A DNA stretch of 64,000 nucleotides, taken from NCBI RefSeq assembly GCF_027945075.1, contig NZ_CP116034.1, forward strand, positions 1,426,001 through 1,490,000, given 5' to 3'. This document shows positions 16,052 through 33,077 of this stretch, piece by piece. Source of the DNA: Chryseobacterium sp. CY350 (lineage in GTDB: Bacteria > Bacteroidota > Bacteroidia > Flavobacteriales > Weeksellaceae). Under the pieces are notes generated by a model. The model made no database searches. It worked only from the letters and a program-made list of their open reading frames with translations, and had not been told where the DNA came from. The position numbers and the translations under genes were made by a program. Within the stretch, counting starts at the first letter, position 1. Each line of letters starts with the position of its first letter.

Positions 16052-16076
16052 TTAAATTACTTCCAAATTTTTAAGC

Positions 16077-16226
16077 ATGAAAATCAAATGTTTTACAGAT
16101 CAAAATTTAACGCATTTCTGGCTTGATAATTGTAACTTATCGTTGGCAATAAATTTAGAAGATAAAAAAGAATATATTCAGATAAAAAAATATAACATGA
16201 GAGAAATTCTGAATATCTCTCATTAA
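16077..16226 (+). CDS. Possible 49-residue ORF of unknown function
   Basis: The ORF encodes MKIKCFTDQNLTHFWLDNCN and 29 more residues, many charged. It lies 25 nt after the topoisomerase stop on the same strand. There is no recognisable motif or signal peptide. It may be a small gene or chance coding. Confidence 0.2.
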   Translation: MKIKCFTDQNLTHFWLDNCNLSLAINLEDKKEYIQIKKYNMREILNISH

Positions 16227-16933: not shown

Positions 16934-18514
16934 ATGAACATATCAAGCAATATCATTAAAAATTTATTGTTGCATAATAATAAAAACCAAATCCTTTATG
17001 ATCTTAACAGTATATCTGGAGAAGAAATTGCTAAAGAAATAATAACTTTAGCAACGTTTTTTAGATCCACGACCAAGTTCAGCAATGGAGACAGGGTGAT
17101 ACTAAGTATGAATGATTCACCGGAATTTATTTATTCTTTCATAGCGCTAATATCGATTGGCTGCATTCCCGTTCCCCTTAATCCTTTAATTCAAGAATCG
17201 GAATTAGAATACATTTTGAAAGATTCAAAAGCAACAGGTGTTATTATTGATAATCACCAGTATTTAAGGCTTTATCAGGTCATACATAGCTCATCGTACA
17301 TCATCAATGATTGTGTTTTAGTGAATAATCCGTCAGTAAAAGAGTATGGATCGATCAATTATTTGCAAAAATATCTCTCATCTAAAAAAGCATTTAATAC
17401 TTCTTTAATTTCTGAATTTGTATACGCAGAGAATAATCCTGTCGCCTTTTGGCAATATACATCCGGAACTACAGGAAATCCCAAAGCTGTGCAACACGGG
17501 CACTATACAATGCTAACTAATACGGAACTCTTTGCACAGAAAACATTAGGAATTGGTGAGGACGATGTTATTATATCTGTTCCGAAAATGTTTTTTGGAT
17601 ACGGTTTAGGAAACAGTTTATTTTTTCCTTTACTTTCTGGAGCTACTGTGATCATTGATGAGAAGTGGTTTTCTCTTGATAATCTGAAAAAGAATATCCG
17701 TCTTTATAAGCCTACAGTTATTTTCGGAACTCCGAAAATCTACTCTGATATATTGCATAATTATGAAAGTTTTTCAGAAAACGATTTTAGCAGTGTAAGA
17801 TTGTTTGTGTCGGCTGGCTCTTCCCTTCAGCACTCCATTATTAAAGAGTGGAAATCAAAATTTGATAAAACCATCGTTAATGGAATCGGCTCAACAGAAA
17901 TTGGTCATATTTTCATGTGCAGTAATCAGGTAAAAGAAAATGATGAAAATTCTTCGTTAGGAATTCCTGTCACGGGCTACCAAATAAAAATTTGTGAAAT
18001 AGATAAACCTGATTCGGTGGTAGAAAATCATGAAGAAATAGGTGAATTATGCATATTTCCACCAGAAAAAACGCTCAGTTCTTATTGGCAACAAGAGAAT
18101 ACCAATACAGCAAAATATAAGAACGGATGGTATTTTTCGGGGGATCTTTGCTCAAAAAAAGAAGATGGCACGTATGTTTATCATGGCAGAAAAGACGAAT
18201 TATTCAAAGTAAACGGACGTTGGGTGAATCCTCTTGAGATAGAAAATACTGTTTTACAGAACTTTCATGAGGTACGTGAATGTGCGGTCACTTATTTTAT
18301 TGATGATGACGGTCTAGAAAAGCCGATACTTTATATCGTGCGAAAAACAGATATAAACAAGGATCTTCTTTCAGACGATATTCAGAAAAAGCTTGCAGAA
18401 AATTTTTCTTCTTACAAACTTCCTACAAGAACTCATTTCTTAAACACATTGCCACGTAACAGCAACGGAAAGGTGATTAAGAAGGGATTGGAAAATAATT
18501 TAACTGAAGCTTAA
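16934..18514 (+). CDS. pqsA: Anthranilate-CoA ligase, PqsA-like
   Basis: This 526-residue ANL-superfamily adenylating enzyme starts at the ATG at 16934 (an in-frame TTG three codons upstream is less likely). The ATP-binding loop YTSGTTGNPKAVQHG lies near residue 176. PKMFFGYGLGNSLFFP and NGIGSTEIGHIF correspond closely to remembered segments of Pseudomonas PqsA (PKMFFGYGMGNSLFFP, DGIGATEVGHVF) and belong to the benzoate-CoA ligase subgroup. GWYFSGDL and the hinge region GRKDELFKVNGRWVNP complete the fold. The expected reaction is anthranilate + ATP + CoA to anthraniloyl-CoA. That fits the linked anthranilate synthase genes and the PqsB-E/L homologues. A related aryl acid as substrate cannot be excluded. 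Confidence 0.85.
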   Translation: MNISSNIIKNLLLHNNKNQILYDLNSISGEEIAKEIITLATFFRSTTKFSNGDRVILSMNDSPEFIYSFIALISIGCIPVPLNPLIQESELEYILKDSKATGVIIDNHQYLRLYQVIHSSSYIINDCVLVNNPSVKEYGSINYLQKYLSSKKAFNTSLISEFVYAENNPVAFWQYTSGTTGNPKAVQHGHYTMLTNTELFAQKTLGIGEDDVIISVPKMFFGYGLGNSLFFPLLSGATVIIDEKWFSLDNLKKNIRLYKPTVIFGTPKIYSDILHNYESFSENDFSSVRLFVSAGSSLQHSIIKEWKSKFDKTIVNGIGSTEIGHIFMCSNQVKENDENSSLGIPVTGYQIKICEIDKPDSVVENHEEIGELCIFPPEKTLSSYWQQENTNTAKYKNGWYFSGDLCSKKEDGTYVYHGRKDELFKVNGRWVNPLEIENTVLQNFHEVRECAVTYFIDDDGLEKPILYIVRKTDINKDLLSDDIQKKLAENFSSYKLPTRTHFLNTLPRNSNGKVIKKGLENNLTEA

Positions 18515-18546
18515 AACAATTACTAACATCAATTTAAAAATATAAA

Positions 18547-19413
18547 ATGCAGATTATAGATGCCATAAGTGAAGTTCCGGGTCTTAATATAAAAGGAAAC
18601 CATGGTAAAATGCAGCATGGTTTTGAGTGTCAGATTTTTGAAGCTGATAAAGAAAAATCTTTATCTGAATGGGCTGTAGATGTAAGCAAAAACTTACTAC
18701 TTAAAAACAATATTTCAGCTGATGATTTGGGCGTTATTATCAATGCATCAATATCGCTTTATGATACTACTTCTTTAGGAAACACTTCAGCTCCGGGAAT
18801 AGGTCATGAGGTTCAAAAACATTTATCTGCAAAAAATGCATTCGTTTTCGAAATGTTTCATAATGATTTAGGAAATATGATAAAGATTGCGTCTGATTTT
18901 TTAACACATATGGATCATCAGTATGCTTTAATTATTCAATCAAATAAATTTTCAACATTTCTAAAAGATGATGAAAATGGATTTTGTATTCCTGATGGTG
19001 TAAATGCACTTTTAATAAAATCGAGCAACAAAAAGATTGAGCTTGAGAATATTCATATCTCCCACCCTGAAATGTCAAAAGCAAGTTTAAGCTTCAACGC
19101 AGGAAATAAAAATGCTTTAAAAAATAATCACATTTTCAGTCTAAACTGGAATTATGATCCTTTGTTTAAAGAGGCTTTGAATTCTGAACTGAAAAATATA
19201 TTATCTAAAGACAAACAGGCAACCGTTATTACAGAAAAGTGGTTTTCGGAACATTTATCATCACAAGACACTGAGAATGCTCTAGCTATGAACACTATTC
19301 CATCTTATTTGCAGGAGCACAGCGAAATAAAAAAACAGCCAATCACTCTGATATCTTACAACCCGTTTCTAGCCCATTATTCAATTCTAAAAATAACACA
19401 TGATGAAATATAA
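18547..19413 (+). CDS. pqsB: PqsB-like non-catalytic KAS III subunit
   Basis: The 288-residue protein matches Pseudomonas PqsB (283) in length and in landmarks such as APGIGHEVQKHLSAKNAFVF and the end ITLISYNPF. The position where FabH-type enzymes carry the catalytic Cys reads FEMFHNDLGNM, with no Cys, as expected for the scaffold half of the PqsBC heterodimer. With PqsC it should condense an acyl chain with 2-aminobenzoylacetate (or its N-hydroxy form) to close the quinolone ring. It overlaps the pqsC-like gene by 14 nt, which suggests coupled translation of the two subunits. Confidence 0.8.
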   Translation: MQIIDAISEVPGLNIKGNHGKMQHGFECQIFEADKEKSLSEWAVDVSKNLLLKNNISADDLGVIINASISLYDTTSLGNTSAPGIGHEVQKHLSAKNAFVFEMFHNDLGNMIKIASDFLTHMDHQYALIIQSNKFSTFLKDDENGFCIPDGVNALLIKSSNKKIELENIHISHPEMSKASLSFNAGNKNALKNNHIFSLNWNYDPLFKEALNSELKNILSKDKQATVITEKWFSEHLSSQDTENALAMNTIPSYLQEHSEIKKQPITLISYNPFLAHYSILKITHDEI

Positions 19414-20434
19414 TGCCTCTATAAAAAGCGTCGCTGTAGGATTTCCGGAGAAATACTATACCAATGATATGGCACCTTTTTCCGAGATTCCGAATTTACC
19501 AAAAAACTGGTGGAGAAATTGGGGAATGGAAGGAAGATATATGGTAGACAAAGAAAAAGGCGAAACCTGCTCTCAGCTTGCCAAAAAAGCGTCTTTGGGA
19601 GCGATAGAAAAAGCTGGTCTTGCTGCAAACGATATAGATCTTATTATCGGAACTACGTGTACCATCACTGGATGGTCTGATAAGGAGGAGAATAGAATTT
19701 TCCCTGGTATTTCAGAATATCTGAAAACAGAGCTGCAATGTAATAATTCGACGATGTGTATTGAGGTAAATCAGGCCTGCATATCATTTCTTGTCGCTAT
19801 GCAAATGGCTTCAGATTACATAAAATCTGGAATGTATAAAAATATCCTGATCTGCTCGGCAGAGACCTTCACACAGATTGCAGACTTCGCTTTACCTTCT
19901 TCTACACTTTTCGGAGACGGCGCGGCATCGGTAGTTGTAGGAAGATCAGAGCAAGACGGACAATTGGTATCGTCTCATTATAAAAGCATCCCCACCTACA
20001 ACGATATTGCAACATTACAGTGGAAAACAACTGTAGGCAAGCCAGGGATAGAATTTACCCGTCCTTATTTTTCATTAGGAGAAGATGCGCCCACCCAAAT
20101 GCAGACATTCGTACCTCAAAATGTTCCTGAAGTTACTTTTAAAGCTTTAGAAAAAGCGGATACCACCGTTGAAGACATACATCATTTTGTATTTCACCAG
20201 CCATCAAAAATGCTGATCAGAATGTGGGCAATGGGCATTGGGATAAAAAAAGAAAAGTACACAACTACCGTAGAGAAATATAGTTGTCTGAGCTCTGCTT
20301 CTATCCCTGTAACGCTATATTTTGCATTAAAAGATGAAAAAATAAAACCTAATAATAAAATTGTACTTGCCGGAGCAGGAATCGGATGGGGCTTCGGAGC
20401 ACAGGTATGGAAAACAGAAAATATTAACTATTAA
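19400..20434 (+). CDS. pqsC: PqsC-like catalytic KAS III subunit
   Basis: This 344-residue thiolase-fold enzyme has its nucleophile Cys at residue 127 (VNQACISF) and catalytic His at 266 (FVFHQPSKM), close to C129 and H269 of Pseudomonas PqsC. The third FabH residue, Asn in a GN motif, is missing: the region reads EKYSCLSSASIP. PqsC also lacks a GN there, so this is a family trait. Other shared landmarks are NWWRNWGM near the N-terminus and AGAGIGWGFGAQVWK at the C-terminus. It should take the acyl chain on Cys and join it to 2-aminobenzoylacetate. The ATGATG start leaves one codon of uncertainty. Confidence 0.87.
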   Translation: MMKYNASIKSVAVGFPEKYYTNDMAPFSEIPNLPKNWWRNWGMEGRYMVDKEKGETCSQLAKKASLGAIEKAGLAANDIDLIIGTTCTITGWSDKEENRIFPGISEYLKTELQCNNSTMCIEVNQACISFLVAMQMASDYIKSGMYKNILICSAETFTQIADFALPSSTLFGDGAASVVVGRSEQDGQLVSSHYKSIPTYNDIATLQWKTTVGKPGIEFTRPYFSLGEDAPTQMQTFVPQNVPEVTFKALEKADTTVEDIHHFVFHQPSKMLIRMWAMGIGIKKEKYTTTVEKYSCLSSASIPVTLYFALKDEKIKPNNKIVLAGAGIGWGFGAQVWKTENINY

Positions 20435-20446
20435 AAATTTTATATA

Positions 20447-20692
20447 ATGGAAAATCAAGAATTATTCAACAAAGTGTATGCTATTTTAGCGGATATCGCA
20501 GAATGCGATGTTAATATCATTAAACCTGATACAGATTTATTAAATGAGATAGGTGTTACCTCTCTTATGGGACTGGAAGTTTTGGTTGAACTTGAAAGAG
20601 AATTTGACCTTAGTCTAGATGAGGGAATTCTTATTAAAATGAAAACTCCAAAAGATATTGTAGACGTTCTGGAAGAAGAATTAGCAGTTTAA
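20447..20692 (+). CDS. Acyl carrier protein dedicated to the cluster
   Basis: This 81-residue acidic four-helix carrier has its phosphopantetheine Ser in GVTSLMGLEVL near residue 39, so the usual D-S-L is T-S-L. It follows the pqsC-like gene by 12 nt and precedes a strong hairpin. It probably carries the growing side chain for the ketosynthase pair, ketoreductase and dehydratase encoded downstream, and hands it to the PqsBC-like condensing enzyme. It is distinct from the housekeeping fatty-acid ACP, whose motif is normally DSL. Confidence 0.85.
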   Translation: MENQELFNKVYAILADIAECDVNIIKPDTDLLNEIGVTSLMGLEVLVELEREFDLSLDEGILIKMKTPKDIVDVLEEELAV

Positions 20693-20699
20693 GAGTTAC

Positions 20700-20748
20700 A
20701 AGCCGAGTTTTTGGGTTCTTACAGATATGTATGAGCCCAAGGCTTTTT
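20700..20748 (+). terminator. Internal terminator or attenuator of the cluster
   Basis: AAGCC (20700-20704) plus TTGGGTTC (20711-20718) pair with GAGCCCAA (20733-20740) plus GGCTT (20741-20745), leaving one 6-nt bulge, and a T-run follows. It lies 8 nt after the ACP stop, so it would separate the pqsABC-acp block from the rest or set a lower expression level for it. Confidence 0.7.
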
Positions 20749-20844
20749 AATAGATTTTGACTTCACCAATATTTATCTGAAAATGATTGGTTCATAACAG
20801 ACACTCATAAGAAACTCCTTTATCAAAGCAAAGGAAAAATTTTT

Positions 20845-22365
20845 TTGAAAAATCAACAAAATAATCTCGTAATGATTGAAAATTTAGAAGTCGATGAATT
20901 GGTAATTGGAGCCGGACTGTGCGGCCTAATGTACGGGATTTCGGCAGCCACCGAAGGAAGTTCGGTTGCCATCAGCGAAGCTCATCACAAAGTAGGCGGC
21001 TATGCTACCAATTTTTACCGGAACAAAAGAAAATTTGTTTTTGACTGCAGTCAGCATAAAGTAAGCGGACTTAAAGAAAATGTAGGAAACCTTTGGAATT
21101 CCCTGAAAAGACTGGGATTACAATCATTGCTGGATGAGTTTGAACTGCATGAAGAAATAGGAACCGTAGTTTATAAAAACCAATTTATAAAACTACCTTC
21201 TGAGCCTGAAGATATTAAAGCGACTCTCATCGCTCATTTCCCTGATGAAATAGTGGGAATTGAAAAACTTTTTTTTGATATAGAATCTCACGGATATCAG
21301 CACTATATGTTTTTTAGAAAGCTGATGAACGAATATACGATTAACAGAAATATTCTGCGCGAAAGCCGCAGCCTCGCAAAAATTACTGCGAGAGATTATT
21401 TTAACACCATTTTTAAAGGACAGGATATTATTGAGGTTCTGAGCCCAATTGCTATATATTCTGGATCGATATCTAATGAAGTGAATGCATTTTATTTTCT
21501 TCACTGTCTATATGCAATGTTCTACGGCGGTCCTGCATTTATGAAAGGAACGGGACAACGCATTTCAGATTTATTATTGAAAGAATTTGTTGATCGTGGC
21601 GGGATTCTTCTGAAGAAAAATGAGGTGCTGGAAATGGAAGACGTAGGCAATCACATGATGGTAACTACCAGAAAAAATATCATAAAAACAAAAAGAGTCA
21701 TAGCAACCTGCCCTCCGGAAGATGTGGTAAGAATGTTGCAAAAGGATGAAAAAGCACAGGAATTCAAAGAAGTTCTTAACAACTTTACAGTCGGATGGGG
21801 ACACTTCTGTGTATTTGCCGTGCTTTCAGTTGCACCAGAGGAATTAGGAATCATTTCACCAGAATATCTTTTAGTTTCAGACACGGGCGATGACTTTACA
21901 GAAGAAGACTTTGAGAATGACACCTACTATGATCTTTTTACTCTGAGTGTAAGTAACTATCATCGTGTAGATCCTGAAGGAGGTTATATTCTTCAATTTA
22001 TTGTTTTAGATCATGGTGACCGATGGTTCCATTTATCCGAAACAGAATACAACGAAAGAAAAGAAAAAATTCAGGAAAAATTAATTAAGAGAGTCCTTAA
22101 AACATTTCCTCAGATAGAAGACAAATTAATATATACAGAATCTTCAACCCCGAAAACCAATTATAAATTTACTTTGGCAACCAAAGGTTCGGCTTTCGCA
22201 TATAAGATGCTTCCGAAAACCAATCTGGGACTATTAAGCAATTTTTCTAATGACAAAGTGAAACTGGTGAGCACGTGGTCCGGAGGTCCCGGTTACGAAA
22301 CAGCAATGTGTTTCGGATATACACAGGGGAAATTATTAAACATGAAAAACACACTGAATACATGA
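20845..22365 (+). CDS. FAD-dependent desaturase/saturase/isomerase of the CrtI-CrtISO-retinol saturase superfamily
   Basis: This protein of about 506 residues starts with a dinucleotide-binding fold (ELVIGAGLCGLMYGISAATEG) followed by EAHHKVGGYATNF, typical of phytoene desaturase and prolycopene isomerase relatives. The C-terminal WSGGPGYETAMCFGYTQGK closes the FAD site. Such enzymes oxidise, reduce or isomerise conjugated double bonds. Here it may act on a polyene side chain made by the linked ketosynthase system, possibly in place of a missing enoyl reductase; this is inference. The TTG at 20845 has AAAGGA upstream; the ATG at 20872 (nine codons later) is the alternative. Its stop overlaps the next start as ATGA. 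Confidence 0.75.
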   Translation: MKNQQNNLVMIENLEVDELVIGAGLCGLMYGISAATEGSSVAISEAHHKVGGYATNFYRNKRKFVFDCSQHKVSGLKENVGNLWNSLKRLGLQSLLDEFELHEEIGTVVYKNQFIKLPSEPEDIKATLIAHFPDEIVGIEKLFFDIESHGYQHYMFFRKLMNEYTINRNILRESRSLAKITARDYFNTIFKGQDIIEVLSPIAIYSGSISNEVNAFYFLHCLYAMFYGGPAFMKGTGQRISDLLLKEFVDRGGILLKKNEVLEMEDVGNHMMVTTRKNIIKTKRVIATCPPEDVVRMLQKDEKAQEFKEVLNNFTVGWGHFCVFAVLSVAPEELGIISPEYLLVSDTGDDFTEEDFENDTYYDLFTLSVSNYHRVDPEGGYILQFIVLDHGDRWFHLSETEYNERKEKIQEKLIKRVLKTFPQIEDKLIYTESSTPKTNYKFTLATKGSAFAYKMLPKTNLGLLSNFSNDKVKLVSTWSGGPGYETAMCFGYTQGKLLNMKNTLNT

Positions 22366-23387
22366 GCAATCTAAAAAAAACATTAAGCCCAAAATTTACA
22401 AGTTTACTAGAAAAACTGAATAAAGCTTCCGAAAAAAAACAAATGAGCCTTCTTCTTGATCATCCTTGGGACGAACCTTTAGAAAATGCATGGCTTAAAA
22501 AAAGAGAGAATATTGCGATCTACGGAACGCCTTATTACGATCTTGCCTCAGAAGAAGAAAGAAGACTTTTATCTGTTTATGAAACAGGGTCATGGTGGTA
22601 CACCTTCATCGTATTCGAAAACCTTGTGTCAGAATATTATATGAAAATTGTGAATCATGGTTCTCTTAAAAGATTTCCTGAAGTCGTAAAATATATCCAT
22701 CATTTTTGTAAGGAAGAGATAGTACATGCAATGGTCTTCAAAAAGGCAATGGCGCATTTTCAGATTACACCGTTTCCTAGCCCATTAAATCTTCAGGAAA
22801 TATACAGCCACAATGCATCAATGTCTGAATTTCCGCTTAAGGCAATTTATCTAACAATTCTTATCGAATGGCTGGCGGAGAATAATGCAATGGAAGATTG
22901 CAATAGCAAAGAAATCTCGCCATTGTCTAGAGCTGTAGCCGTAGAGCATCATAAAGAAGAAGCAAGACATATTGAATGGGGGAAAAACATGATCCGTGAA
23001 TTTCTGGATGCAGTTCCTGAATTTTTGAAAGAAGCACAGGAAAGTACTGCTCCGATGCTAAGAAGCATGCTCGATATGTCGGTTTGCAGTATCGTGGTTT
23101 ATTCTCGGGTTGGCTTTCAGAATCCTGCTTTTAGAGATTATAAAAAACTAATACCTGCAGTATTGGAAAGTGAAAACCGTCAACAGATCAACGCCAGAAT
23201 TATGGCTCCTTTGATGAGATATTTTATCGAAATGGGAATCTGCGATCCTTATAATGATGAAAATATGCAAATATGGAGAGACAACAGATTTGGAAAAGAT
23301 GTTGAAGATGCCGTGGAGTATTTCAGAAAAAAATCTGCCGGAGCAGAAGATATTGATAATGTAATGAATAAAAATTACGACGAATGA
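22362..23387 (+). CDS. AurF-like diiron oxygenase
   Basis: This 341-residue helical protein starts at the ATG at 22362, which overlaps the previous TGA by four bases; a longer in-frame extension upstream is only overlap. It carries two carboxylate-bridged diiron motifs: KEEIVHAM (EExxH, near residues 118-122) and VEHHKEEARHIEWG (residues 194-207), plus an intervening EWLAENNAMED helix. This pattern fits the p-aminobenzoate N-oxygenase AurF family, which oxidises aryl amines; other members hydroxylate carbon. In an anthranilate-derived pathway it could oxidise the amine or the side chain. A PqsL-like N-hydroxylase is also present, so a second, different oxidation seems likely. Confidence 0.78.
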   Translation: MSNLKKTLSPKFTSLLEKLNKASEKKQMSLLLDHPWDEPLENAWLKKRENIAIYGTPYYDLASEEERRLLSVYETGSWWYTFIVFENLVSEYYMKIVNHGSLKRFPEVVKYIHHFCKEEIVHAMVFKKAMAHFQITPFPSPLNLQEIYSHNASMSEFPLKAIYLTILIEWLAENNAMEDCNSKEISPLSRAVAVEHHKEEARHIEWGKNMIREFLDAVPEFLKEAQESTAPMLRSMLDMSVCSIVVYSRVGFQNPAFRDYKKLIPAVLESENRQQINARIMAPLMRYFIEMGICDPYNDENMQIWRDNRFGKDVEDAVEYFRKKSAGAEDIDNVMNKNYDE

Positions 23388-24376
23388 GAACCGTCATATC
23401 AGGATTTGGTCATGCCCTACCCTTTAAAACCGTAGATAACAAAACTATTGTGGAATTGATGAATACAACGGAAGAATTCATCGAAACCCGTACCGGCGTA
23501 CTTACCAGAAAACATATTTCTGAAAATGAAAGTACAAGCGTCTTGATGGTAGAAGCCTGCAAAAAAGCAATTGAGAGAGCAAATCTTTTACCTGAAGACA
23601 TTGATATGCTGATTGTAAACACTTTAAGCCCGGATTATCATGATCCTTCGCAGGCGTGTCTTATTCAGCCGTTACTTTCATTGAAAAATACAATTCCTGT
23701 ATTTGATATCCGAGCGCAATGTAGTGGACTTCTCTACGGAATGGACATCGCAAGACAATTTATAGCAACAGGAACGCATCAGAATATATTAGTGTGTTGT
23801 GGAGAGGCTTTATCAAAAAGAATGGACTATTCTGATGAAGGGAGAAATTTATCGATATTGCTTGGCGACGGAGCCGGAGCAGTGGTTTTAAGCAGTTCCA
23901 AAAATGAAGATAAAGGAATTCTTGATGTCAGCATCCATGCAGATGGAAGCTATTTTAAATTACTATGGACAGAAAGTCCGGGAACATCTGGCAAAACATT
24001 CAATGGAGACGATAGTAAGTGCTCATATTTCAGGATGAATGGTAAGGAAATGTTCAACCACGCTGTGGAGAAATTCACAGAAGTTGCTGTTCAGATATTA
24101 AAAAAGAACAATCTTACCCTCGAAGATATTGATGTTATTATTCCTCACCAACCCAATATGAGAATTTTGGATGCCGTAATGAGCAATCTTGAAATTCCAA
24201 AAGAAAAAATGCAGATTAATGTACACAAATACGGAAATATTGCATCCGGTTCATTACCTGTAACATTAAGCGAATATATGTCGGATACTCCTGAAGAAGA
24301 GAGAGCCGGAAAACTGGGATTGATTATAGGATACGGTTCCGGAGCAACATGGGGAAGTATTTTATATAAATTTTAG
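23384..24376 (+). CDS. pqsD: Anthraniloyl-CoA anthraniloyltransferase, PqsD-like
   Basis: This 330-residue KAS III enzyme has the full triad: C113 (DIRAQCSGLLYG), H255 (IPHQPNMRILDAV) and N285 (KYGNIASGSLP), against C112, H257 and N287 in Pseudomonas PqsD (337 residues). Blocks such as LLPEDIDMLIVNTLSPD and GRNLSILLGDGAGAVV are nearly identical to PqsD as I remember it. The expected reaction is anthraniloyl-CoA plus malonyl-CoA giving 2-aminobenzoylacetyl-CoA. It overlaps the diiron oxygenase gene by ATGA, so it is translationally coupled. This is one of the clearest matches in the cluster. Confidence 0.92.
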   Translation: MRTVISGFGHALPFKTVDNKTIVELMNTTEEFIETRTGVLTRKHISENESTSVLMVEACKKAIERANLLPEDIDMLIVNTLSPDYHDPSQACLIQPLLSLKNTIPVFDIRAQCSGLLYGMDIARQFIATGTHQNILVCCGEALSKRMDYSDEGRNLSILLGDGAGAVVLSSSKNEDKGILDVSIHADGSYFKLLWTESPGTSGKTFNGDDSKCSYFRMNGKEMFNHAVEKFTEVAVQILKKNNLTLEDIDVIIPHQPNMRILDAVMSNLEIPKEKMQINVHKYGNIASGSLPVTLSEYMSDTPEEERAGKLGLIIGYGSGATWGSILYKF

Positions 24377-24390
24377 ATTACATAATAACC

Positions 24391-25266: not shown

Positions 25267-26417
25267 ATCAAAATCCGAAATATAAAGAATATGATGTATG
25301 TATCGTAGGAGCGGGAATCGCCGGTATTTTCCTGGCGTGGCTGCTTGGCTCAAAAGGTAAAAAAGTATTGATTTTAGAAAAAAATGCTAAAATCAATATG
25401 AACGGTGCAGATATTTTAAAACCTTCCGGAATCAATGTTCTGGAAAAACATGGTCTGCTGCAGGAGCTTATGAATAAAGAATGCAGAGTGAGAGACGAAC
25501 TTCGTGTTTTTCATAATGGTATTCAGGTCGATCATATCAATTATAAGGCAGAAAACGAAAGAGGATATTTTATGGTTTGCCCATATAATGTTTTGCTGGA
25601 AACGATCTATGATAAAATTCAGGCGATCGAAAACGTAGAACTATTGGTGAACCAATCTGTATCAAAAATAAAAGAAGTAGAAAGCGGAGTTTTTGTCACT
25701 TTAAATTCAGGTGAAGAGATATTTTGCAATATTCTTATCGGAGCAGACGGAACAAAGTCTATCGTTAGAGAATATGCCGATATAGAAGCCCATTTTGATT
25801 ATTACGATCATGTAATGTATTTCAACAAATATCCTGTCACAGCAAGCGTTGAAGAGCTCAACAGATTGTATGTTGATGAAAAAGGAGGACTTGCTTACTT
25901 TTACCCCATTAATAACAGAGAATCCCGATGTGTTCTGGGTTTTAGTATGGAAGAAGGTAAAAGTTTGAGAGAATCAGGAAACAGAGACGTTTTAATCAAC
26001 CGACTAAAAGAATTTGTTACCGAAAGTGATGATATGGTGGATCAGATTACCTCAATGGACGATTTTCTTACATTTCCATTATGTAAAATGCATACTGAAA
26101 AATATTTTAATGGAAGAATACTTCTTTTAGGAAACGCAGCACACTCTATTCATCCAATAACCGGACAGGGAATGAACTTAGCCATTGAGGATGTTGGTGA
26201 ACTGATCATCTGGCTCTCAAAATATTTTGAAGCTGAAATTTCACTGGAAGAAGCATTATCCGGTTATCAAAAACAGAGGTTAGAGCTCAATAATAAAGTT
26301 CTCAATTACGGTCACCGCTTGGCAAATAGTTTTGGAAGTGCAGAAAATTTCATGAATAGTCTAAATTCCAAGATACAGACCAGCAGCCGGGATCTTTCTA
26401 TACTTAATAAGATTTAA
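25263..26417 (+). CDS. pqsL: PqsL-like FAD monooxygenase (2-aminobenzoylacetate N-hydroxylase)
   Basis: This 384-residue group A flavoprotein monooxygenase has the GAGIAGIFLAWLLGSKG dinucleotide fold, GADGTKSIVRE (DG motif) and LLGNAAHSIHPITGQGMN (GD motif with Asn for Asp). It resembles Pseudomonas PqsL more than PqsH: NGADILKPSGINVLE, RLYVDEKGGLAYFYPI and the late NYGHRLA all have close PqsL counterparts. PqsL hydroxylates the amine of 2-aminobenzoylacetate, and PqsBC then gives quinoline N-oxides instead of quinolones. The cluster is therefore expected to make a 2-substituted 4-hydroxyquinoline N-oxide. No clear PqsH homologue is seen. Confidence 0.85.
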   Translation: MNQNPKYKEYDVCIVGAGIAGIFLAWLLGSKGKKVLILEKNAKINMNGADILKPSGINVLEKHGLLQELMNKECRVRDELRVFHNGIQVDHINYKAENERGYFMVCPYNVLLETIYDKIQAIENVELLVNQSVSKIKEVESGVFVTLNSGEEIFCNILIGADGTKSIVREYADIEAHFDYYDHVMYFNKYPVTASVEELNRLYVDEKGGLAYFYPINNRESRCVLGFSMEEGKSLRESGNRDVLINRLKEFVTESDDMVDQITSMDDFLTFPLCKMHTEKYFNGRILLLGNAAHSIHPITGQGMNLAIEDVGELIIWLSKYFEAEISLEEALSGYQKQRLELNNKVLNYGHRLANSFGSAENFMNSLNSKIQTSSRDLSILNKI

Positions 26418-26424
26418 AATAATT

Positions 26425-27180
26425 ATGCAAATAGATTTAACAGACAAACATTTTTTAGTAACCGGCGGCGGAAGAGGAATAGGTAAAGCTATTGTTTTGC
26501 AATTGCTTACATCAGGCGCATCCGTATCATTTACCTATAATCACGGTAAAGAAACGGCAGATGCTTTTTTGCAGGAACTTTCGATAAAATTTCCTGGAAA
26601 AGTTGCTCTTTATAAGGCGGATATAAAAGATGAAGAACAATCAAAATCGTTAATTGCTGAAATTGAAAAATCTCAGCTTGGTTCATTGTACGGTTTGGTT
26701 AACAATGCCGGAATAACTATGGATGCTCCATTCTTCAGTATGACCACAGATATGTGGAAAGACGTATTGGATACCAACCTAAGCGGAACGTATTACCTCA
26801 CAAAAGCAGTTGTAAAATCGTTGATCAGGAAGAAAAATTCAAAAATTATTAATATTTCATCTGTTTCAGGAGTAAGAGGTGCTATGGGACAAGCCAATTA
26901 CGGAGCTACAAAAGCTGCTGTTATTTCTTTAACTAAAACTCTTGCGCTGGAATTTGCAAAATTTAATTTGCAAGTAAATGCAGTTGCACCCGGATTTATT
27001 GATACCGAAATGGTCGACAAAATGAATGAACAGGATAAGAAGAAGATTGATCAAATGATCCCTATGAAAAGAATGGGAAAAACGGAAGAAGTTGCCAATC
27101 TGGTCACATTTTTATGTTCAGAAAAAAGTAATTATATCACCGGACAGACCTTTATCATCGATGGAGGACTAACGTTATAA
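26425..27180 (+). CDS. fabG: 3-oxoacyl-ACP reductase (FabG-type SDR)
   Basis: A 251-residue short-chain dehydrogenase. The NADP site TGGGRGIGKAI starts near residue 13, NNAG follows near residue 91, Ser is in NISSVSG, and the YGATK catalytic Tyr-Lys pair lies near residue 152. The C-terminal ITGQTFIIDGGL is typical of FabG. It should reduce the 3-keto group after each condensation by the adjacent ketosynthase. It is probably a dedicated ketoreductase of the cluster and not the housekeeping FabG, because it is flanked by a condensing-enzyme pair and a dehydratase in one operon. Confidence 0.88.
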   Translation: MQIDLTDKHFLVTGGGRGIGKAIVLQLLTSGASVSFTYNHGKETADAFLQELSIKFPGKVALYKADIKDEEQSKSLIAEIEKSQLGSLYGLVNNAGITMDAPFFSMTTDMWKDVLDTNLSGTYYLTKAVVKSLIRKKNSKIINISSVSGVRGAMGQANYGATKAAVISLTKTLALEFAKFNLQVNAVAPGFIDTEMVDKMNEQDKKKIDQMIPMKRMGKTEEVANLVTFLCSEKSNYITGQTFIIDGGLTL

Positions 27181-27193
27181 AAACATAATAAAT

Positions 27194-28438
27194 ATGAAAA
27201 GAATCGTCATTACAGGAATGGGCGTTGTAAGCCCGTTAGCTTGTGAAAAAGAAATCTTTTGGGAAAAAATCCTGAATGGAGAATCTGGTGTAGGAGACCT
27301 TACAAAGTTAGATTCATCCAATTATAAAGGTGCAACCCGCGCTGCCGAAGTAGATCTTGAGAAAGATTATAACAATCCGGAATTACTGAAGCATTTTAAA
27401 CCTTACGGAAAAGCTGTGACTTATGCTGCTGCTGCTGTAGATATGGGACTGAAAGATGCCGGTTTTGGTAAAAGATTTACAGAGAAAAACAATTATGGAA
27501 TCATCTTAGGCACTACAAATGGCAATCAGGACATTGTAGAACGCATCGTAGATAAGTGGAGTCTGGAAATGGAACATGAGGATTTAACTACTAAAGCAGC
27601 TAAAACCCTTACCTATTTCAGACCCATAGAACTGAGTGCAAGTATTGCAAAATTTTATAATCTTGGCGGAACAAATATGGTGATACCAACTGCCTGTGCA
27701 GCAGGTAATTACGCGATTGGTACTGCGTATTCTATGATCCGTGAAGGTAGATCTTCGATCATTATTGCCGGAGGAGCAGATCCTTTCACAAGATCATGTT
27801 ATACTGTTTTTTACAGATTGGGAGCAATGTCCAAAGACAACTGCAAACCATTTGATCAGAACAGAAACGGAATGGTTGTAGGAGAAGGAGCGGCAGTTTT
27901 AGTTCTTGAAGAGCTGGAACACGCACTGGCGAGAGGCGCAAAAATATACGGCGAAATTAAAGGATACGGTTTGGCTTGTGACGCTTATGATCCTACAGCA
28001 CCGGAACCTTCCGGATCTGGAGCTACCCTTTCGATGAACAATGCATTAAAATCTAGTAATGTTGATAAAAACAGCATTACATATGTTAGTGCGCACGGAA
28101 CAGGAACTAAGGCAAATGATGCGCATGAGATCAATGCGATGAGCAATGTATTCGGTGAAGATATCAAAACAATGTATGTAAATGGAATTAAATCTATGTT
28201 AGGACATTGTATGGGAGCTGCAAGTGCATTGGAAGCTGTTACAGCAACTCTTTCTTTACATTATCAAAAAGTTCCTAAAAACCGTAATACCGTAAAGATT
28301 GATGAGGCTTTCAAAACCCATTTCCTTATCCAGCCTTCTTCTGAGATTGAAAATAAAGTAGATCATGTCCTTAGTAATTCGTTCGCTTTTGGCGGAAATA
28401 TATGTAGCGTAATATTCAGTAAATATGACAGCAAATAA
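27194..28438 (+). CDS. Ketosynthase (KAS II / type II PKS KS-alpha)
   Basis: This 414-residue condensing enzyme is catalytically complete. C168 is in PTACAAGNYAIG, one His is in SAHGTGTKANDAHE, and the second is in KSMLGHCMGAASALE. It adds C2 units from malonyl-ACP. It overlaps the next condensing-enzyme gene by 14 nt, and that partner lacks the active Cys, so the two look like a KS-alpha / chain-length-factor pair as in type II polyketide and aryl-polyene systems. Side-chain synthesis for the quinolone is the simplest role. Confidence 0.87.
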   Translation: MKRIVITGMGVVSPLACEKEIFWEKILNGESGVGDLTKLDSSNYKGATRAAEVDLEKDYNNPELLKHFKPYGKAVTYAAAAVDMGLKDAGFGKRFTEKNNYGIILGTTNGNQDIVERIVDKWSLEMEHEDLTTKAAKTLTYFRPIELSASIAKFYNLGGTNMVIPTACAAGNYAIGTAYSMIREGRSSIIIAGGADPFTRSCYTVFYRLGAMSKDNCKPFDQNRNGMVVGEGAAVLVLEELEHALARGAKIYGEIKGYGLACDAYDPTAPEPSGSGATLSMNNALKSSNVDKNSITYVSAHGTGTKANDAHEINAMSNVFGEDIKTMYVNGIKSMLGHCMGAASALEAVTATLSLHYQKVPKNRNTVKIDEAFKTHFLIQPSSEIENKVDHVLSNSFAFGGNICSVIFSKYDSK

Positions 28439-29468
28439 TACTTCAAATAAAGATATAGTAATTTCCGCTATCGGTTTTAACAGCCCGTACGGAACAGAAA
28501 TAGATAATTATTTCTGCCAAAATGAATCAGAAAATAAAAATTTAATTATAGAAGATCATGATCCGCAGAAGTTTTTAAAACCAAAAGGACAGCGATTTCT
28601 TAATAAAGCAACATTAGTCTACGGAAATGTAGCCTTTCATGCTATCAACAATAGAGATTTAAAATCAAAAATTGATGAAACTCCTGAGAGAATTGGTCTT
28701 TATGACGGAACAGAACTTTCTAATCTGGAAGACTGCTTTATATTTGATTTAACAGCAAAAAATCAAGGTCCGGATCGTGTGAGCCCAATGAAAGCTCCAA
28801 GCACTATTGCTAATGCAGCAGCAAGCCAGATGGCTATTCAGGCGGGAATAAAAGGCCCTAACTTCAGCGTCTGTGCAGGTATGGCGGGTAGTCTTCAGGC
28901 TTTGGATATCGCTACTCTCCACCTAAAGCAAGGAATTACAGATTACGGCGTGATTGCTTCTACCGAGATCAGAAATTATTATCAGGAATCTATTCGCAGA
29001 GGGAATGAAAGTCATCATAGAAACATATCTCCGGAACTGGGAATTGCTATGGTATTGGAACGTAGAGAAACGCTGATACTGGAAGGAAAAAAACCTTTAG
29101 CTACAATAAAAAAGATACATTCTGAAACTCACACTGAAGATTTACCGATAGAAGCATTTTTATTCCAAAATATTTCAAATATGGCGGATCAATATAGTTT
29201 CGATACTGTAATTTTTTCCGGAGGAACCTCTACTATCAATGAAAAAGTATTCGAAGAAGTGCTGAAAAAGAATGGTTTAAATATGTCTGTTATTTATCCG
29301 GAAACTTTATTCGGTGACAATGATAATGCAGGAGGAATGCTGGGAATTGCTTACGGTATTGCAATATTTGAAGGGAAAAACGTATACAAAACTGATAAAG
29401 AAAACATACTTGTACTTTCCTCAGATAAGACGGGAACAGTGATTTTAACCGTAATTGAAAAAGCATAA
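28425..29468 (+). CDS. KS-beta / chain-length-factor-like protein without active-site Cys
   Basis: This 347-residue thiolase-fold protein is shorter than its neighbour. Counting from GPNFSVCAGMAGSLQ, the catalytic Cys position holds Met153; a Cys occurs three residues earlier (C150), off the nucleophile position. The usual HGTGT block is not recognisable. A non-catalytic partner in an overlapping gene directly after the active ketosynthase is the pattern of chain-length factors, which form heterodimers with KS-alpha and set chain length. The real chain length cannot be predicted from sequence here. Confidence 0.75.
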   Translation: MTANNTSNKDIVISAIGFNSPYGTEIDNYFCQNESENKNLIIEDHDPQKFLKPKGQRFLNKATLVYGNVAFHAINNRDLKSKIDETPERIGLYDGTELSNLEDCFIFDLTAKNQGPDRVSPMKAPSTIANAAASQMAIQAGIKGPNFSVCAGMAGSLQALDIATLHLKQGITDYGVIASTEIRNYYQESIRRGNESHHRNISPELGIAMVLERRETLILEGKKPLATIKKIHSETHTEDLPIEAFLFQNISNMADQYSFDTVIFSGGTSTINEKVFEEVLKKNGLNMSVIYPETLFGDNDNAGGMLGIAYGIAIFEGKNVYKTDKENILVLSSDKTGTVILTVIEKA

Positions 29469-29471
29469 TAA

Positions 29472-29954
29472 ATGGAAACAATATTAGAAGCATATCAGAT
29501 CACTCAAATTTTAAAGTATCGTCATCCCTTTCTTCTCGTTGATAAGGTAACGGGATATATTCCTGGTAAAGAGCTGACAGCGGTAAAAGCAGTTTCTATG
29601 GGAGAACCTTATTTTGCAGGTCATTTTCCGGATTTCCCGATCATGCCGGGAGTACTTATTACTGAAGCATTAGCACAGGCATCGTCTCTGATGTTGGCTT
29701 TAGACGATCTTGGATGGGAAGCTGGAAAGCCAATTCCGTCAGCCGATAGACCAGTGATAGGTGTTTTGGGAAGCACACAGATCAGTTTCCTGAAATCTGT
29801 ATTGCCGGGAAGCATGTTACATCTTGAGGTAAGCATAGACTGGCGAAAAGGTTCTGCGTGTTCCATTAATGTAAAAGCATCAGTAGAAGGTTCTGTTTGT
29901 GCCAAAGGAAAAGTAACAGTGATGTCTATTGATAAAAGTAAACTTTTCGGTTAA
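29472..29954 (+). CDS. fabZ: 3-hydroxyacyl-ACP dehydratase, FabZ-type
   Basis: A 160-residue hot-dog-fold protein. It carries the FabZ signature GHFPDFPIMPGVLITEALAQ starting near residue 53, which supplies the catalytic His and Glu, and an early ILKYRHPFLLVDKV block. It removes water from 3-hydroxyacyl-ACP to give trans-2-enoyl-ACP. It starts 3 nt after the chain-length-factor stop and abuts the thioesterase start. No enoyl reductase gene of a recognised family is present nearby, so double bonds may be kept. Confidence 0.9.
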   Translation: METILEAYQITQILKYRHPFLLVDKVTGYIPGKELTAVKAVSMGEPYFAGHFPDFPIMPGVLITEALAQASSLMLALDDLGWEAGKPIPSADRPVIGVLGSTQISFLKSVLPGSMLHLEVSIDWRKGSACSINVKASVEGSVCAKGKVTVMSIDKSKLFG

Positions 29955-30683
29955 ATGAAGCATAAAACACTATTGTTCTGTATTCCTTATGCAGGTGGGT
30001 CGTCCACTTCAATGTCTAATGTAGCCAATGTTTTGAACTCAGAAGACTTGGAAGTGCATTATGTAGAATTACCGGGAAGAGGAATGAGAAGTGAAGAACC
30101 CTTCCACTCAACATTAGAGGAAACGATAGAAGATATATCGGCGAAGATCAAGAGCACATTACAAAGTACAGATCAACCTTTTATATTGTGGGGACACAGT
30201 ATGGGATCGGTTTTATCATTACTTGTATCGTTTAAAATTCAGGAGGATTATAATTGTAGAGGATTAATCGTGTCAGGTATGCGCGCTCCTCTATTTAAAT
30301 CAACAAAGCAACCGTTATCCCGAGAAAAACGAAACGCATTGCTTGTTGACATTCTCCCCACAAAATATGAAAGAAGCAAGAACGCTCCACTTTTTCAGAG
30401 GGTGCAACAGAAACGGATAGAAATTATGGAAAAAGATGTTGCTCTGTTAGAAGAGAATCCTATTGCAGACTGGTCTTCGATCATCATTAAAAGTCCTTTG
30501 GCAGTAATCATAGCAGAAGACGACGAACTTTATGACAACAAAGATTGTTATCTGCGATGGAATCATCATACATCCAGTGCGACAAGTTATTTTCCGGTCA
30601 AAGGCGGTCATTTCTTTATGTTTCAGTATCCTTCGCAGACATCTGCTTTGATCAAAACAATAATAAATGATTTAAAATATTAA
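29955..30683 (+). CDS. Type II thioesterase (alpha/beta hydrolase)
   Basis: This 242-residue protein has the type II thioesterase features of PKS and NRPS clusters. FCIPYAGGSSTSM is near the start, ELPGRGMRSEEP follows, the nucleophile Ser is in LWGHSMGSVLS near residue 81, the Asp is in AEDDELYDN and the His is in KGGHFFMFQ. It most likely edits the carrier protein by removing stalled acyl groups, or releases the chain. Its ATG directly follows the dehydratase stop codon. Confidence 0.87.
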   Translation: MKHKTLLFCIPYAGGSSTSMSNVANVLNSEDLEVHYVELPGRGMRSEEPFHSTLEETIEDISAKIKSTLQSTDQPFILWGHSMGSVLSLLVSFKIQEDYNCRGLIVSGMRAPLFKSTKQPLSREKRNALLVDILPTKYERSKNAPLFQRVQQKRIEIMEKDVALLEENPIADWSSIIIKSPLAVIIAEDDELYDNKDCYLRWNHHTSSATSYFPVKGGHFFMFQYPSQTSALIKTIINDLKY

Positions 30684-30698
30684 ATCCATAAAAAAAAC

Positions 30699-32099
30699 AT
30701 GATTTCTTCATTACATATAGATTCTGAATACTCAGAGAACTTCGACATAAAAAATTTTTATGTCCATTTGAGAGAAAAAAGCAATAGCTCGATTTGGTTT
30801 GAAGTTTCCGAAGCGGTAAACAGTGAAAATCACAGGCTCATCTTTATTGCGGCAGAACCTATCGCTTCTTTACAGTCAAATAATGTTAATGAACTTCAAT
30901 GTACATCAGGAAATGATGTGGTAACATATAACGTAAGCGGAGAAGTTTTTTGGACTAAAGTTGGTGAATGGCAGAAAAAACATAATCCTGATCATTCTCA
31001 TCCCTATAACGGATTGCTGGGTTTTAGCAGCTATGGTTCTATACAGCTTGTTGAAAATATATTTTTGAAAAAATATGACGAGGAAAGTCATCTCGGCCAA
31101 TTACCTCTTTTTAAGTTTTCCCTTTATCGGTATATCTATGTTTTTAATGTCACGCTTTCTAAGGTTGTTTGCATCAATAACTTTTATGAGGGTGAAAACC
31201 GAGAAATTGGCGATATGAAGAAATGGCTTGAAAACAGTCAAGTCAGTGATTTAAAAGAATTTTCAATTTCCGAAAATGAAGAAATCGACTGCACGGAAGA
31301 AGAATTTTTAGAGAAAGTTGACAGGGCAAAACATCATTGTCAGGTAGGTGACGTTTTTCAGTTGGTTGTTTCCAGACGATTTTCCAGGAATTATGTTGGA
31401 GATCCCTGGACATTTTTCATCAAATTAAAAAACAACAGTGCGCAATACTATTTCTTTTTGGATGAGGAAAATTATAAAATCGCAGGAGCGTCACCAGAAA
31501 CCCATTTCAGATCTAGCAACGGTGTAGGAGTCGTAAAGCCTATTGCAGGAACGTACCGAAAAACGATGAATAAAAATGAAGATGCATTACTCGAAGAAAA
31601 GCTTTTAGCGGATCCTAAAGAAAATGCAGAACACAATATGCTTATTGACCTGGCAAGAAATGATCTGAGTAAATATGCAGATAATGTATACATCAGCAAA
31701 CTGAAAACCATTGAGCATTACAATAATGTCATTCATATTGTGAGTGAGGTTCAGGGGAAAATGAATACAGACTGCAATCCTATTCGATTAATTAAGGAAT
31801 TTTTGCCTGCAGGAACTTTAAGTGGCGCCCCAAAATACAGAGCTATTCAGCTTATTGATGAAATAGAAAGCAGCTACCGCTCGTATTATGGTGGATTACT
31901 CGGATGGATCGGTTTTAATAATGATATTAATACCTGTATTCTTATAAGAAGCGCGCTGTTCGAGAACGGAATGATGATTTATCGTGCAGGAGCCGGAGTC
32001 GTTATATCTTCTGAACCTCAAAAGGAACTGGAAGAAGTAATCAATAAAATCACACTGATACTAAACACTTTAAAGGAATTTCCATCCTATAAATTATGA
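30699..32099 (+). CDS. trpE: Anthranilate synthase component I (TrpE/PhnA type)
   Basis: This 466-residue chorismate-utilising enzyme shows KPIAGTYRKT, with Ala where aminodeoxychorismate synthases (PabB) usually carry Lys. It also has PAGTLSGAPKYRAIQLIDE and YYGGLLGWIGF, all typical of anthranilate synthases. With the glutaminase encoded next it makes anthranilate from chorismate and glutamine. No other tryptophan genes are nearby, so this copy is expected to supply anthranilate to the PqsA-like ligase, as PhnAB does in Pseudomonas. Feedback control by Trp cannot be judged with certainty. Its stop overlaps the next start by ATGA. Confidence 0.88.
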   Translation: MISSLHIDSEYSENFDIKNFYVHLREKSNSSIWFEVSEAVNSENHRLIFIAAEPIASLQSNNVNELQCTSGNDVVTYNVSGEVFWTKVGEWQKKHNPDHSHPYNGLLGFSSYGSIQLVENIFLKKYDEESHLGQLPLFKFSLYRYIYVFNVTLSKVVCINNFYEGENREIGDMKKWLENSQVSDLKEFSISENEEIDCTEEEFLEKVDRAKHHCQVGDVFQLVVSRRFSRNYVGDPWTFFIKLKNNSAQYYFFLDEENYKIAGASPETHFRSSNGVGVVKPIAGTYRKTMNKNEDALLEEKLLADPKENAEHNMLIDLARNDLSKYADNVYISKLKTIEHYNNVIHIVSEVQGKMNTDCNPIRLIKEFLPAGTLSGAPKYRAIQLIDEIESSYRSYYGGLLGWIGFNNDINTCILIRSALFENGMMIYRAGAGVVISSEPQKELEEVINKITLILNTLKEFPSYKL

Positions 32100-32665
32100 A
32101 AAAAATATTACTTGTAGATAATTATGACTCATTTACTTACAACCTCAAACAACTTGTTTCTGAATGTTGTGACTATAAAATTGATGTCTTTAGAAATGAT
32201 ACATTTCAGATGGAATTAGTTGAAGAGTATGATGCTGTGATCCTTTCTCCGGGTCCCGGTATTCCGCAAGATGCAGGACAATGCATTCCATTGATTGAGA
32301 ATTTCAAAGATAAAAAAAAAATATTGGGAATTTGTTTGGGACATCAGGCAATTGGGGTGGCTTTCGGTGCCAACCTTATTAATACGTCTCATGTATATCA
32401 TGGTGTAAGTTCTATAATAGCACTGAATAACAATGAAAAGATATACACAGAACTCCCTGAAAACATACAAGTTGCAAGATACCACAGTTGGGTGGTAGAA
32501 AATAACAATTTACCTGATGATCTTGTCATAACATCTAGTGATGATAAAAATACCATCATGTCTATCCGTCATGATAAATATGATATTACTGGGTTGCAAT
32601 ATCACCCTGAAAGCTTTCTTACTCCGGCGGGAAAAAAGATCATACAAAACTGGATTAATTCTTAA
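32096..32665 (+). CDS. trpG: Anthranilate synthase component II, glutamine amidotransferase (TrpG/PhnB type)
   Basis: A 189-residue class I amidotransferase. The oxyanion region is LSPGPGIPQDAG, the nucleophile Cys is in GICLGHQAIGVAFG near residue 79, and the His-Glu pair is in LQYHPESFLTPAG near residue 172. It delivers ammonia from glutamine to component I. TrpG and PabA are hard to tell apart; the TrpE-like partner decides for anthranilate. Four-base overlap with component I implies coupled translation and an equimolar complex. Confidence 0.88.
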   Translation: MKKILLVDNYDSFTYNLKQLVSECCDYKIDVFRNDTFQMELVEEYDAVILSPGPGIPQDAGQCIPLIENFKDKKKILGICLGHQAIGVAFGANLINTSHVYHGVSSIIALNNNEKIYTELPENIQVARYHSWVVENNNLPDDLVITSSDDKNTIMSIRHDKYDITGLQYHPESFLTPAGKKIIQNWINS

Positions 32666-32672
32666 AAGTAAA

Positions 32673-33071: not shown

Positions 33072-33077
33072 TTACGC

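Follow-up and report, generated by a model that had tools for sequence, protein, structure and literature searches.

Interleaving of Pqs-type genes with those of a reducing type II polyketide synthase in Chryseobacterium sp. CY350 and the predicted quinoline product

The DNA analyzed here (the window) is a stretch of 64,000 nucleotides from the flavobacterium Chryseobacterium sp. CY350 (assembly GCF_027945075.1, contig NZ_CP116034.1, positions 1426001-1490000), whose genome consists of one contig of 4.09 Mb. A run of 16 genes, all on the + strand, was found at 16934-32665 of the window, in which genes resembling the alkylquinolone genes pqsA to pqsE and pqsL of Pseudomonas aeruginosa (A to E and L below) are interleaved with genes for building and tailoring a chain. 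The order is A-B-C-ACP-CrtD-AurF-D-E-L-FabG-KS-alpha-KS-beta-FabZ-TE-TrpE-TrpG, where ACP is acyl carrier protein, KS is ketosynthase, and TE is thioesterase. With ATG starts at 20872 for the CrtD-like gene and at 22362 for the AurF-like gene, 14 of the 15 intergenic gaps measured -14 to +32 bp, and the sole wider gap (179 bp) lies between the ACP and CrtD-like genes. The original prediction, made from the letters of the window, had described six adjacent Pqs genes on one strand. The shared strand was borne out and the adjacency was not, as ACP, CrtD-like, and AurF-like genes stand between A-B-C and D-E-L; of these, the predicted order had named the ACP only. A DUF3995 gene (start 32673) and then a gene for a MauG-like di-haem peroxidase follow 3' of TrpG. 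The features are listed below with the basis of each assignment (FAD, flavin adenine dinucleotide; 2-ABA-CoA, 2-aminobenzoylacetyl-CoA).

16934..18514, + strand: PqsA-like anthranilate/benzoate--CoA ligase (Pfam AMP-binding, 215 bits)
18547..19413, + strand: PqsB-like non-catalytic partner (best PDB match PqsB, 39 bits; fold)
19400..20434, + strand: PqsC-like condensing enzyme, C127/H266 (PDB PqsC, 211 bits; clade 100/100)
20447..20692, + strand: ACP (PP-binding, E 1e-12; Ser of TSL/DSL kept in 17/17 rows)
20872..22365, + strand: CrtD/CrtISO/phytoene-desaturase-like FAD oxidoreductase (NCBIfam CrtD, 86 bits, cut-off 550)
22362..23387, + strand: AurF-family (PF11583) diiron oxygenase (86.5 bits, cut-off 29.6)
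23384..24376, + strand: PqsD-like protein, C113/H255/N285 (PDB PqsD, 358 bits; clade 100/100)
24391..25266, + strand: PqsE-like metallo-hydrolase, 2-ABA-CoA thioesterase type (PDB PqsE, 131 bits; HxHxDH)
25263..26417, + strand: PqsL-like FAD monooxygenase (PDB 2x3n, 254 bits)
26425..27180, + strand: FabG-like ketoreductase (NCBIfam 3-oxoacyl-ACP reductase, 274 bits)
27194..28438, + strand: KS-alpha, FabF-like, C168/H301/H338 (family match, aligned triad)
28425..29468, + strand: KS-beta, chain-length-factor-like, catalytic Cys and both His gone (family match, alignment)
29472..29954, + strand: FabZ-like dehydratase (family match)
29955..30683, + strand: type II thioesterase, GHSMG (Pfam PF00975)
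30699..32099, + strand: TrpE-like anthranilate synthase I, the genome's second copy (family match, phylogeny)
32096..32665, + strand: TrpG-like amidotransferase (family match)
32673..33071, + strand: DUF3995 small protein (Pfam, 98.7 bits)
33078..34304, + strand: MauG-like di-haem peroxidase (Pfam, 148.6 bits)

When the proteins were compared with all solved structures, D matched PqsD best (358 bits; next other molecule, 227), C matched PqsC (211; next, 114), and E matched PqsE (131; next, 39). The best match of L (254 bits; next, 88) was 2x3n, an entry named 'probable FAD-dependent monooxygenase', which we take to be PqsL. The B protein, which has no Pfam match at all, matched PqsB at 39 bits (E 6e-9; next match, E 0.013), and the top seven fold matches of its AlphaFold model (mean predicted local distance difference test score, pLDDT, 71) were chains of PqsBC entries with the length of PqsB (275-283 residues). 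In a tree of 38 ketosynthase-III (KSIII) rows, PqsC (15 rows) and PqsD (10 rows) each formed one clade with support of 100/100, and the window proteins fell inside. The possibility that C and D are chance FabH look-alikes was rejected, given these separate Pqs clades, which stand apart from the six other KSIII proteins of the genome. The catalytic residues of C, D, and E were each kept in 13 of 13 rows when aligned with P. aeruginosa and Burkholderia references, and PDB alignments were also made for the D and C active sites; the residues named in the original prediction (C113/H255/N285 of D, C127/H266 of C, and HSHYDH at 67-72 of E) were confirmed in this way. The best solved-structure matches thus assign B, C, D, E, and L to the Pqs type, as do fold for B and phylogeny for C and D. 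The A protein is 34% identical to PqsA of P. aeruginosa, and its matches among solved structures were benzoate-CoA ligase (234 bits), anthranilate-CoA ligase (219 bits), and a 407-residue piece of PqsA (197 bits); the earlier assignment of all six proteins to the Pqs type therefore stood for five of them, with A matching benzoate-CoA ligases best. A dedicated anthranilate synthase had also been predicted, and the cluster TrpE was indeed found to be a second genome copy, 38% identical to the other full-length one. A protein of the actinomycete Nonomuraea gerenzanensis (NZ_LT559118.1:5195726-5196805) is 32% identical to the window PqsL over 94% of its length.

The chain-building genes have the make-up of a reducing type II polyketide synthase (PKS), namely a KS-alpha with its triad, a KS-beta without it, a ketoreductase, a dehydratase, and a dedicated ACP. 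The Cys-His-His triad of KS-alpha was intact in 17 of 17 rows. In KS-beta the cysteine was missing from all 17 rows (Gln in Cellvibrio), as was the second His, and the first His was missing from 16, the Photobacterium protein having a His at that position; judged from these residues, KS-beta is a chain-length-factor-like partner. Type II sets of KS-alpha-KS-beta, ketoreductase, and dehydratase have been described as making polyene chains (PMC6510318, PMC8358021). A copy of the genome's housekeeping KS was rejected as the source of the set (the closest other KS encoded in the genome is 35% identical to KS-alpha). Family scans of the cluster's open reading frames (ORFs) turned up no separate enoyl reductase gene. 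The top Pfam match of the FabG-like protein, an SDR model, is named enoyl-ACP reductase, and NCBIfam ranks 3-oxoacyl-ACP reductase first.

Seven residues of metal-ligand type in the diiron protein, E90, E123, H126, E173, H200, E204, and H207 (numbering of 22350-23384), were invariant in 36 of 36 aligned proteins; they were compared with the presumed ligand positions of AurF. In a structural model of this protein (pLDDT 91), the fold was closest to those of CmlI and AurF. R2 proteins reached an equal Z score, and VIA-align, in whose list the absence of other families carries no meaning, did not separate them from CmlI; a Foldseek search with the model gave no match at E 0.001 or better. By the titles of their structure entries, AurF and CmlI are arylamine N-oxygenases.

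To place the cluster among relatives, one genome per species (84,980 genomes) was scanned with short exact D patterns, a scan that reaches near relatives only. It returned 11 loci, of which five held a KSIII protein without the Pqs set and six held both halves (hybrid loci): C. panacisoli, C. jejuense, C. pennae, C. lathyri, Flavobacterium hercynium, and Cellvibrio sp. OA-2007. A further hybrid was found on a Photobacterium replicon. Among 173 genomes of the genus, 12 carried an AurF-type gene (2 of them in two copies). Samples of 395 genomes each from the order and from the phylum gave 4 carriers, all Chryseobacterium, and 1 carrier, the window genome itself, respectively. The Cellvibrio AurF likewise occurred in 1 of 390 genomes drawn from the order of Cellvibrio, that of Cellvibrio itself, and E was found in 2 of 59 relatives with the window genome counted. 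Gene order was read at nine AurF loci of the genus (three hybrid, six stand-alone), with those of G107, G122, and G124 outside the reading and that of G005 read over 3.9 kb only. Partial relatives were seen in Hymenobacter (C, 44%), Chitinophaga (E, 36%), and Pendulispora (E, 31%), a comparison of proteins that did not extend to gene order.

The 11 hybrid loci (the window, the five other named species, G143, G127, G159, Photobacterium, and Cellvibrio) cover two phyla and four genera, and the order A-B-C-ACP-CrtD-AurF-D-E-FabG-KS-alpha-KS-beta-FabZ was kept in every one of them. Its recurrence in other genera indicates that the cluster is more than chance, and a single 12-gene order across two phyla is what joint work of the two halves on one product would lead one to expect. 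The stretches read around the loci extended to 37 kb in Photobacterium and to ~3 kb past the cluster in F. hercynium and Cellvibrio. Within them, TrpE/TrpG were present in 9 of 11 hybrids, as was the TE; DUF3995 was present in 9 of 11 hybrid and 0 of 6 stand-alone loci, and the MauG-like peroxidase in 7 of 11 and 6 of 6, respectively; DUF3995 thus follows the Pqs half, and the peroxidase the chain half. PqsL was found in 8 of 11 hybrids, which are all eight Chryseobacterium loci, and no PqsL orthologue was present in the F. hercynium and Cellvibrio genomes, where the nearest relative was 26% identical. PqsL is therefore accessory, and the chain-building and tailoring set belongs to the core.

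FAD monooxygenases of another family, 34% alike and nearest to the NCBIfam model PRK06753, were found in Photobacterium and F. hercynium, and that of Cellvibrio was more distant (24-27%). G127 holds PqsL plus a second FAD monooxygenase, 69% identical to that of F. hercynium, which weakens the idea that PqsL was replaced by another FAD monooxygenase. In all, such enzymes lie beside four hybrids (L015:16233-17504, L060:28293-29474, L016:1423-2577, and L075:7894-8877; mutual identities 24-69%); at a guess, they are perhaps ring hydroxylases.

The six stand-alone loci (L051, L052, and L055-L058) have the order ACP-CrtD-AurF-FabG-KS-alpha-KS-beta-FabZ-TE-peroxidase. None of A to E, L, TrpE, TrpG, or DUF3995 was found in the ~20 kb read at each of the six. 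Since the CrtD-like and AurF-like genes persist there without Pqs genes or TrpE/TrpG, both enzymes would go with the chain, not with the aniline nitrogen. G127 and G143 each hold a stand-alone and a hybrid locus.

Based on gene content, gene order, catalytic residues, homology, and conservation, the 16-gene run is predicted, with reasonable confidence, to make a 4-hydroxyquinoline, likely an N-oxide, with an unsaturated side chain that would be built by the cluster and not taken from primary fatty-acid synthesis; the compound would likely serve as an antibiotic or as a signal. TrpE/TrpG would supply anthranilate, and A would convert it to anthraniloyl-CoA. D would then use malonyl-CoA to give 2-aminobenzoylacetyl-CoA, from which E would release 2-aminobenzoylacetate, and L would hydroxylate the amine of the latter; the order of the Pqs reactions is taken from P. 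aeruginosa (PMC12012761). In parallel, KS-alpha/KS-beta, FabG, FabZ, and the ACP would lengthen a chain with no enoyl reductase dedicated to it. This chain, while bound to the ACP, may be oxidized or isomerized by the CrtD-like and diiron enzymes, and the thioesterase would clear stalled ACP. Finally, B/C would condense the ACP-borne chain with (hydroxyamino)benzoylacetate, and ring closure would give a 2-substituted 4-hydroxyquinoline N-oxide. The original prediction had named the class of 2-heptyl-4-hydroxyquinoline N-oxide (HQNO). The Pqs-type proteins agree with it, and it is too narrow in that half of the operon is for chain building and tailoring and PqsL is accessory (8 of 11).

Several observations weigh against this prediction. 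The hybrid loci were selected for holding both halves, and only co-conservation suggests that B/C accept chains carried by the ACP of the cluster, so that the halves could feed two products. The substrate of A is not fixed by its sequence, benzoate-CoA ligases being the top matches; PqsL is missing from 3 of 11 hybrids, which means that the N-oxide is not a general feature; the CrtD-like enzyme scored 86 bits against NCBIfam CrtD, far under the cut-off of 550; and the diiron protein is only 11-15% identical to CmlI and AurF in fold alignments. A plain HQNO-type pathway could run on octanoyl or decanoyl thioesters of primary metabolism, with the KS/FabG/FabZ/ACP set making a separate (polyene) product. 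Such a division is consistent with the chain half occurring alone in six loci of the genus and coexisting with a hybrid in G127 and G143, which points to a function of its own, and with the Pqs half occurring without the chain half in P. aeruginosa and Burkholderia. However, the two halves interrupt each other at two places of a tight run whose order is kept from Bacteroidota to Gammaproteobacteria in all 11 hybrids, and unrelated pathways would be expected to separate; we regard two separate products as quite improbable.

The diiron gene is present in 11 of 11 hybrids and PqsL in 8, and two PqsL-less genomes retain the diiron gene; AurF and CmlI being arylamine N-oxygenases, the diiron protein might be the core N-oxygenase of 2-aminobenzoylacetate or of the quinoline, and PqsL a lineage-specific extra. 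Against this role stand the low identity to AurF and CmlI and the retention of the diiron gene, with CrtD and ACP in both locus types, at all six stand-alone loci, which lack TrpE/TrpG and Pqs genes in the stretches read, and we consider it unlikely. About as unlikely is a cyclized chain, in which the polyene would undergo cis isomerization by the CrtD-like enzyme, then electrocyclization and desaturation to an aryl side chain. Cinnamoyl-type type II PKS pathways combine KS-alpha-KS-beta, ketoreductase, and dehydratase with an isomerase and a desaturation step (PMC6510318), and a CrtD/CrtISO-like enzyme is core to this cluster, but neither a test on residues nor one on phylogeny links the CrtD-like protein with such a reaction.

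The cluster shares with pqsABCDE-phnAB and pqsL of P. aeruginosa (type A) the genes A, B, C, D, E, and L and the anthranilate synthase pair, with the same relative order (A-B-C-D-E-TrpE-TrpG) and catalytic residues. It differs in having L inside the operon, in eight extra interleaved genes (ACP, CrtD-like, AurF-like, FabG, KS-alpha, KS-beta, FabZ, and TE), and in the cluster TrpE of Bacteroidota, which is of separate origin from PhnA. The A-E core is also shared with hmqABCDEFG of Burkholderia (type C) and ABCDELFG of Chitinivorax (type D), the latter also with PqsL in the cluster (PMC12012761). The range given in the original prediction, gammaproteobacteria and Burkholderia, was thus slightly out of date, Chitinivorax having been added in 2025 (PMC12012761). 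HmqF of Burkholderia and Chitinivorax tailors side-chain unsaturation (PMC12012761), a precedent for a cluster-encoded hand in the side chain; unlike those clusters, the one in the window has no recognized HmqF/HmqG-type gene and has a type II PKS set instead. With the reducing type II PKS of aryl polyenes and cinnamoyl peptides it has in common KS-alpha-KS-beta, ketoreductase, dehydratase, ACP, and an isomerase/desaturase-like partner (PMC6510318, PMC8358021), to which an AurF-family diiron enzyme and the quinoline-forming set are added here. An anthranilate-derived quinoline is common to the aurachin pathway (Stigmatella and others), which needs two malonyl units and an isoprenyl chain (PMC12012761); no Pfam match to a prenyltransferase was found in the 16 genes.

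In the available part of a 2025 survey of alkylquinolones, four genera with four architectures are given, all Proteobacteria, and none is described there with a type II PKS set (PMC12012761). The Pseudoalteromonas-type cluster in it has two genes of unknown function (PMC12012761), and single alkylquinolone compounds have been reported from Alteromonas and, as an N-oxide, from Arthrobacter (PMC7731028). Neither such genes in Bacteroidota nor a combination of Pqs and type II PKS genes was found in the open-licence literature searched by title and abstract start, among the matches listed, which agrees with the original statement that no described version from Bacteroidetes was known. Alkylquinolones are model signals and respiratory poisons; the cluster extends Pqs-type genes to Bacteroidota and predicts new side-chain chemistry, and quinolines with an oxidized polyene chain, if made, would be a chemotype not found described in the literature searched.

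Phylogenetic analysis was performed to relate the hybrid and simple loci. P. aeruginosa PqsC grouped with Cellvibrio and Photobacterium with support of 100/100, as did PqsD (99/92) and PqsE (100/97), and PhnA grouped with the Cellvibrio cluster TrpE (100/100; this copy stands twice in the TrpE tree). The C and D proteins of P. aeruginosa are 57% and 62% identical to those of Cellvibrio and 41% and 54% to those of Burkholderia. The cluster TrpE of Bacteroidota grouped with housekeeping TrpE of Bacteroidota (95/96), indicating that the TrpE/TrpG pair was recruited separately there. The trees used 8 of 59 C homologues and 8 of 63 E homologues, and for AurF 35 of 47 were aligned and 16 of 47 were in the tree; the enlarged AurF and KS-alpha trees do not include C. 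jejuense and C. lathyri, and the C/D, TrpE, and joined A-E trees omit these two and G143. In topology tests with groups named after the trees had been seen, the simple-type proteins held as one clade were rejected for C (approximately unbiased test, p-AU 0.0005) and for joined A-E (0.00015) and not for D alone (0.15), and for D the hybrids as one clade were rejected (0.003); gene context was read for three of the six 'simple' C rows, the others being two metagenome rows and Trinickia.

For the stand-alone loci, nesting inside the Bacteroidota hybrids was supported by AurF (97/93, enlarged tree), by CrtD if the 17-row tree is rooted on the gammaproteobacterial pair (97/100), and weakly by KS-alpha (81/77), where long branches meet. 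In the 17-row trees, the CrtD of this group was placed next to that of the window-type hybrids and its KS-alpha next to the pair of G127 and F. hercynium, and its AurF branched outside the hybrids of Bacteroidota.

The hybrid order minus the chain genes and L is A-B-C-D-E-TrpE-TrpG, that is, pqsABCDE-phnAB. The tree groupings and this shared order favor a history in which the P. aeruginosa line lost the chain half and the stand-alone loci lost the Pqs half. We give an even chance to the view that the P. aeruginosa operon, with PqsR, is what remains of an older composite cluster whose PqsBC received its chains from a polyketide builder of its own. The whole would have been kept in Chryseobacterium, Flavobacterium, Cellvibrio, and Photobacterium, the quinolone half in P. 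aeruginosa and Burkholderia, and the chain half in six Chryseobacterium loci, and the full clusters would make quinolines with oxidized polyene chains. The reverse, with simple pqs operons as the ancestral state, insertion of the chain genes at a later stage, and a P. aeruginosa operon that never had them, appears rather unlikely to us. It can draw on the D tree, where the two simple-type PqsD as one clade were not rejected, on the equivocal place of P. aeruginosa inside or beside the Cellvibrio/Photobacterium pair (p-AU 0.48, joined A-E), and on the long branch of Burkholderia in the joined tree; the rejections obtained with C, joined A-E, and the D hybrids argue against it. Moreover, both places of insertion are common to the hybrids of the two phyla, so that separate insertion would demand two occurrences of one double event, or else piecewise transfer. 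Loss from a composite would give the Pseudomonas quinolone signal (PQS) operon a testable origin.

Regarding regulation, the ORFs scanned next to the cluster in the window included no PqsR/LysR-type gene, in a search that was not genome-wide. A LysR gene beside the Cellvibrio hybrid (L016:394-1383) matched MvfR at 43.5% identity over 310 residues, and one beside the Photobacterium hybrid (L060:13429-14379) at 33.8% over 296 residues; on these matches, PQS-like signalling is possible in Cellvibrio and Photobacterium. An Rfam scan of 14000-36500 gave no RNA element at gathering scores, promoter and terminator scans gave nothing above the level of shuffled sequence, and a Bacteroidota-type promoter pattern had no + strand match in 15901-33200.

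A Burkholderia strain cleared two Chryseobacterium isolates on plates only with hmqD intact, and one of them also in coculture (PMC11513363). This raises the question of self-protection, to which DUF3995, tracking the Pqs half, is a candidate answer.

The G+C content of the cluster was 36.2%, against 35.0% for the window, and gave no sign of recent import by foreign base composition. Between the cluster and a set of CTnDOT-type conjugative transposon genes (DUF4138, TraM, TraJ, TraG, and relaxase; window 48733-61881, ~16 kb downstream of the cluster) lies an AT-rich stretch at 34443-48000 (29.6% G+C against the same window value), in which a 198-aa ORF at 45716-46312 has a weak TIR-type match.

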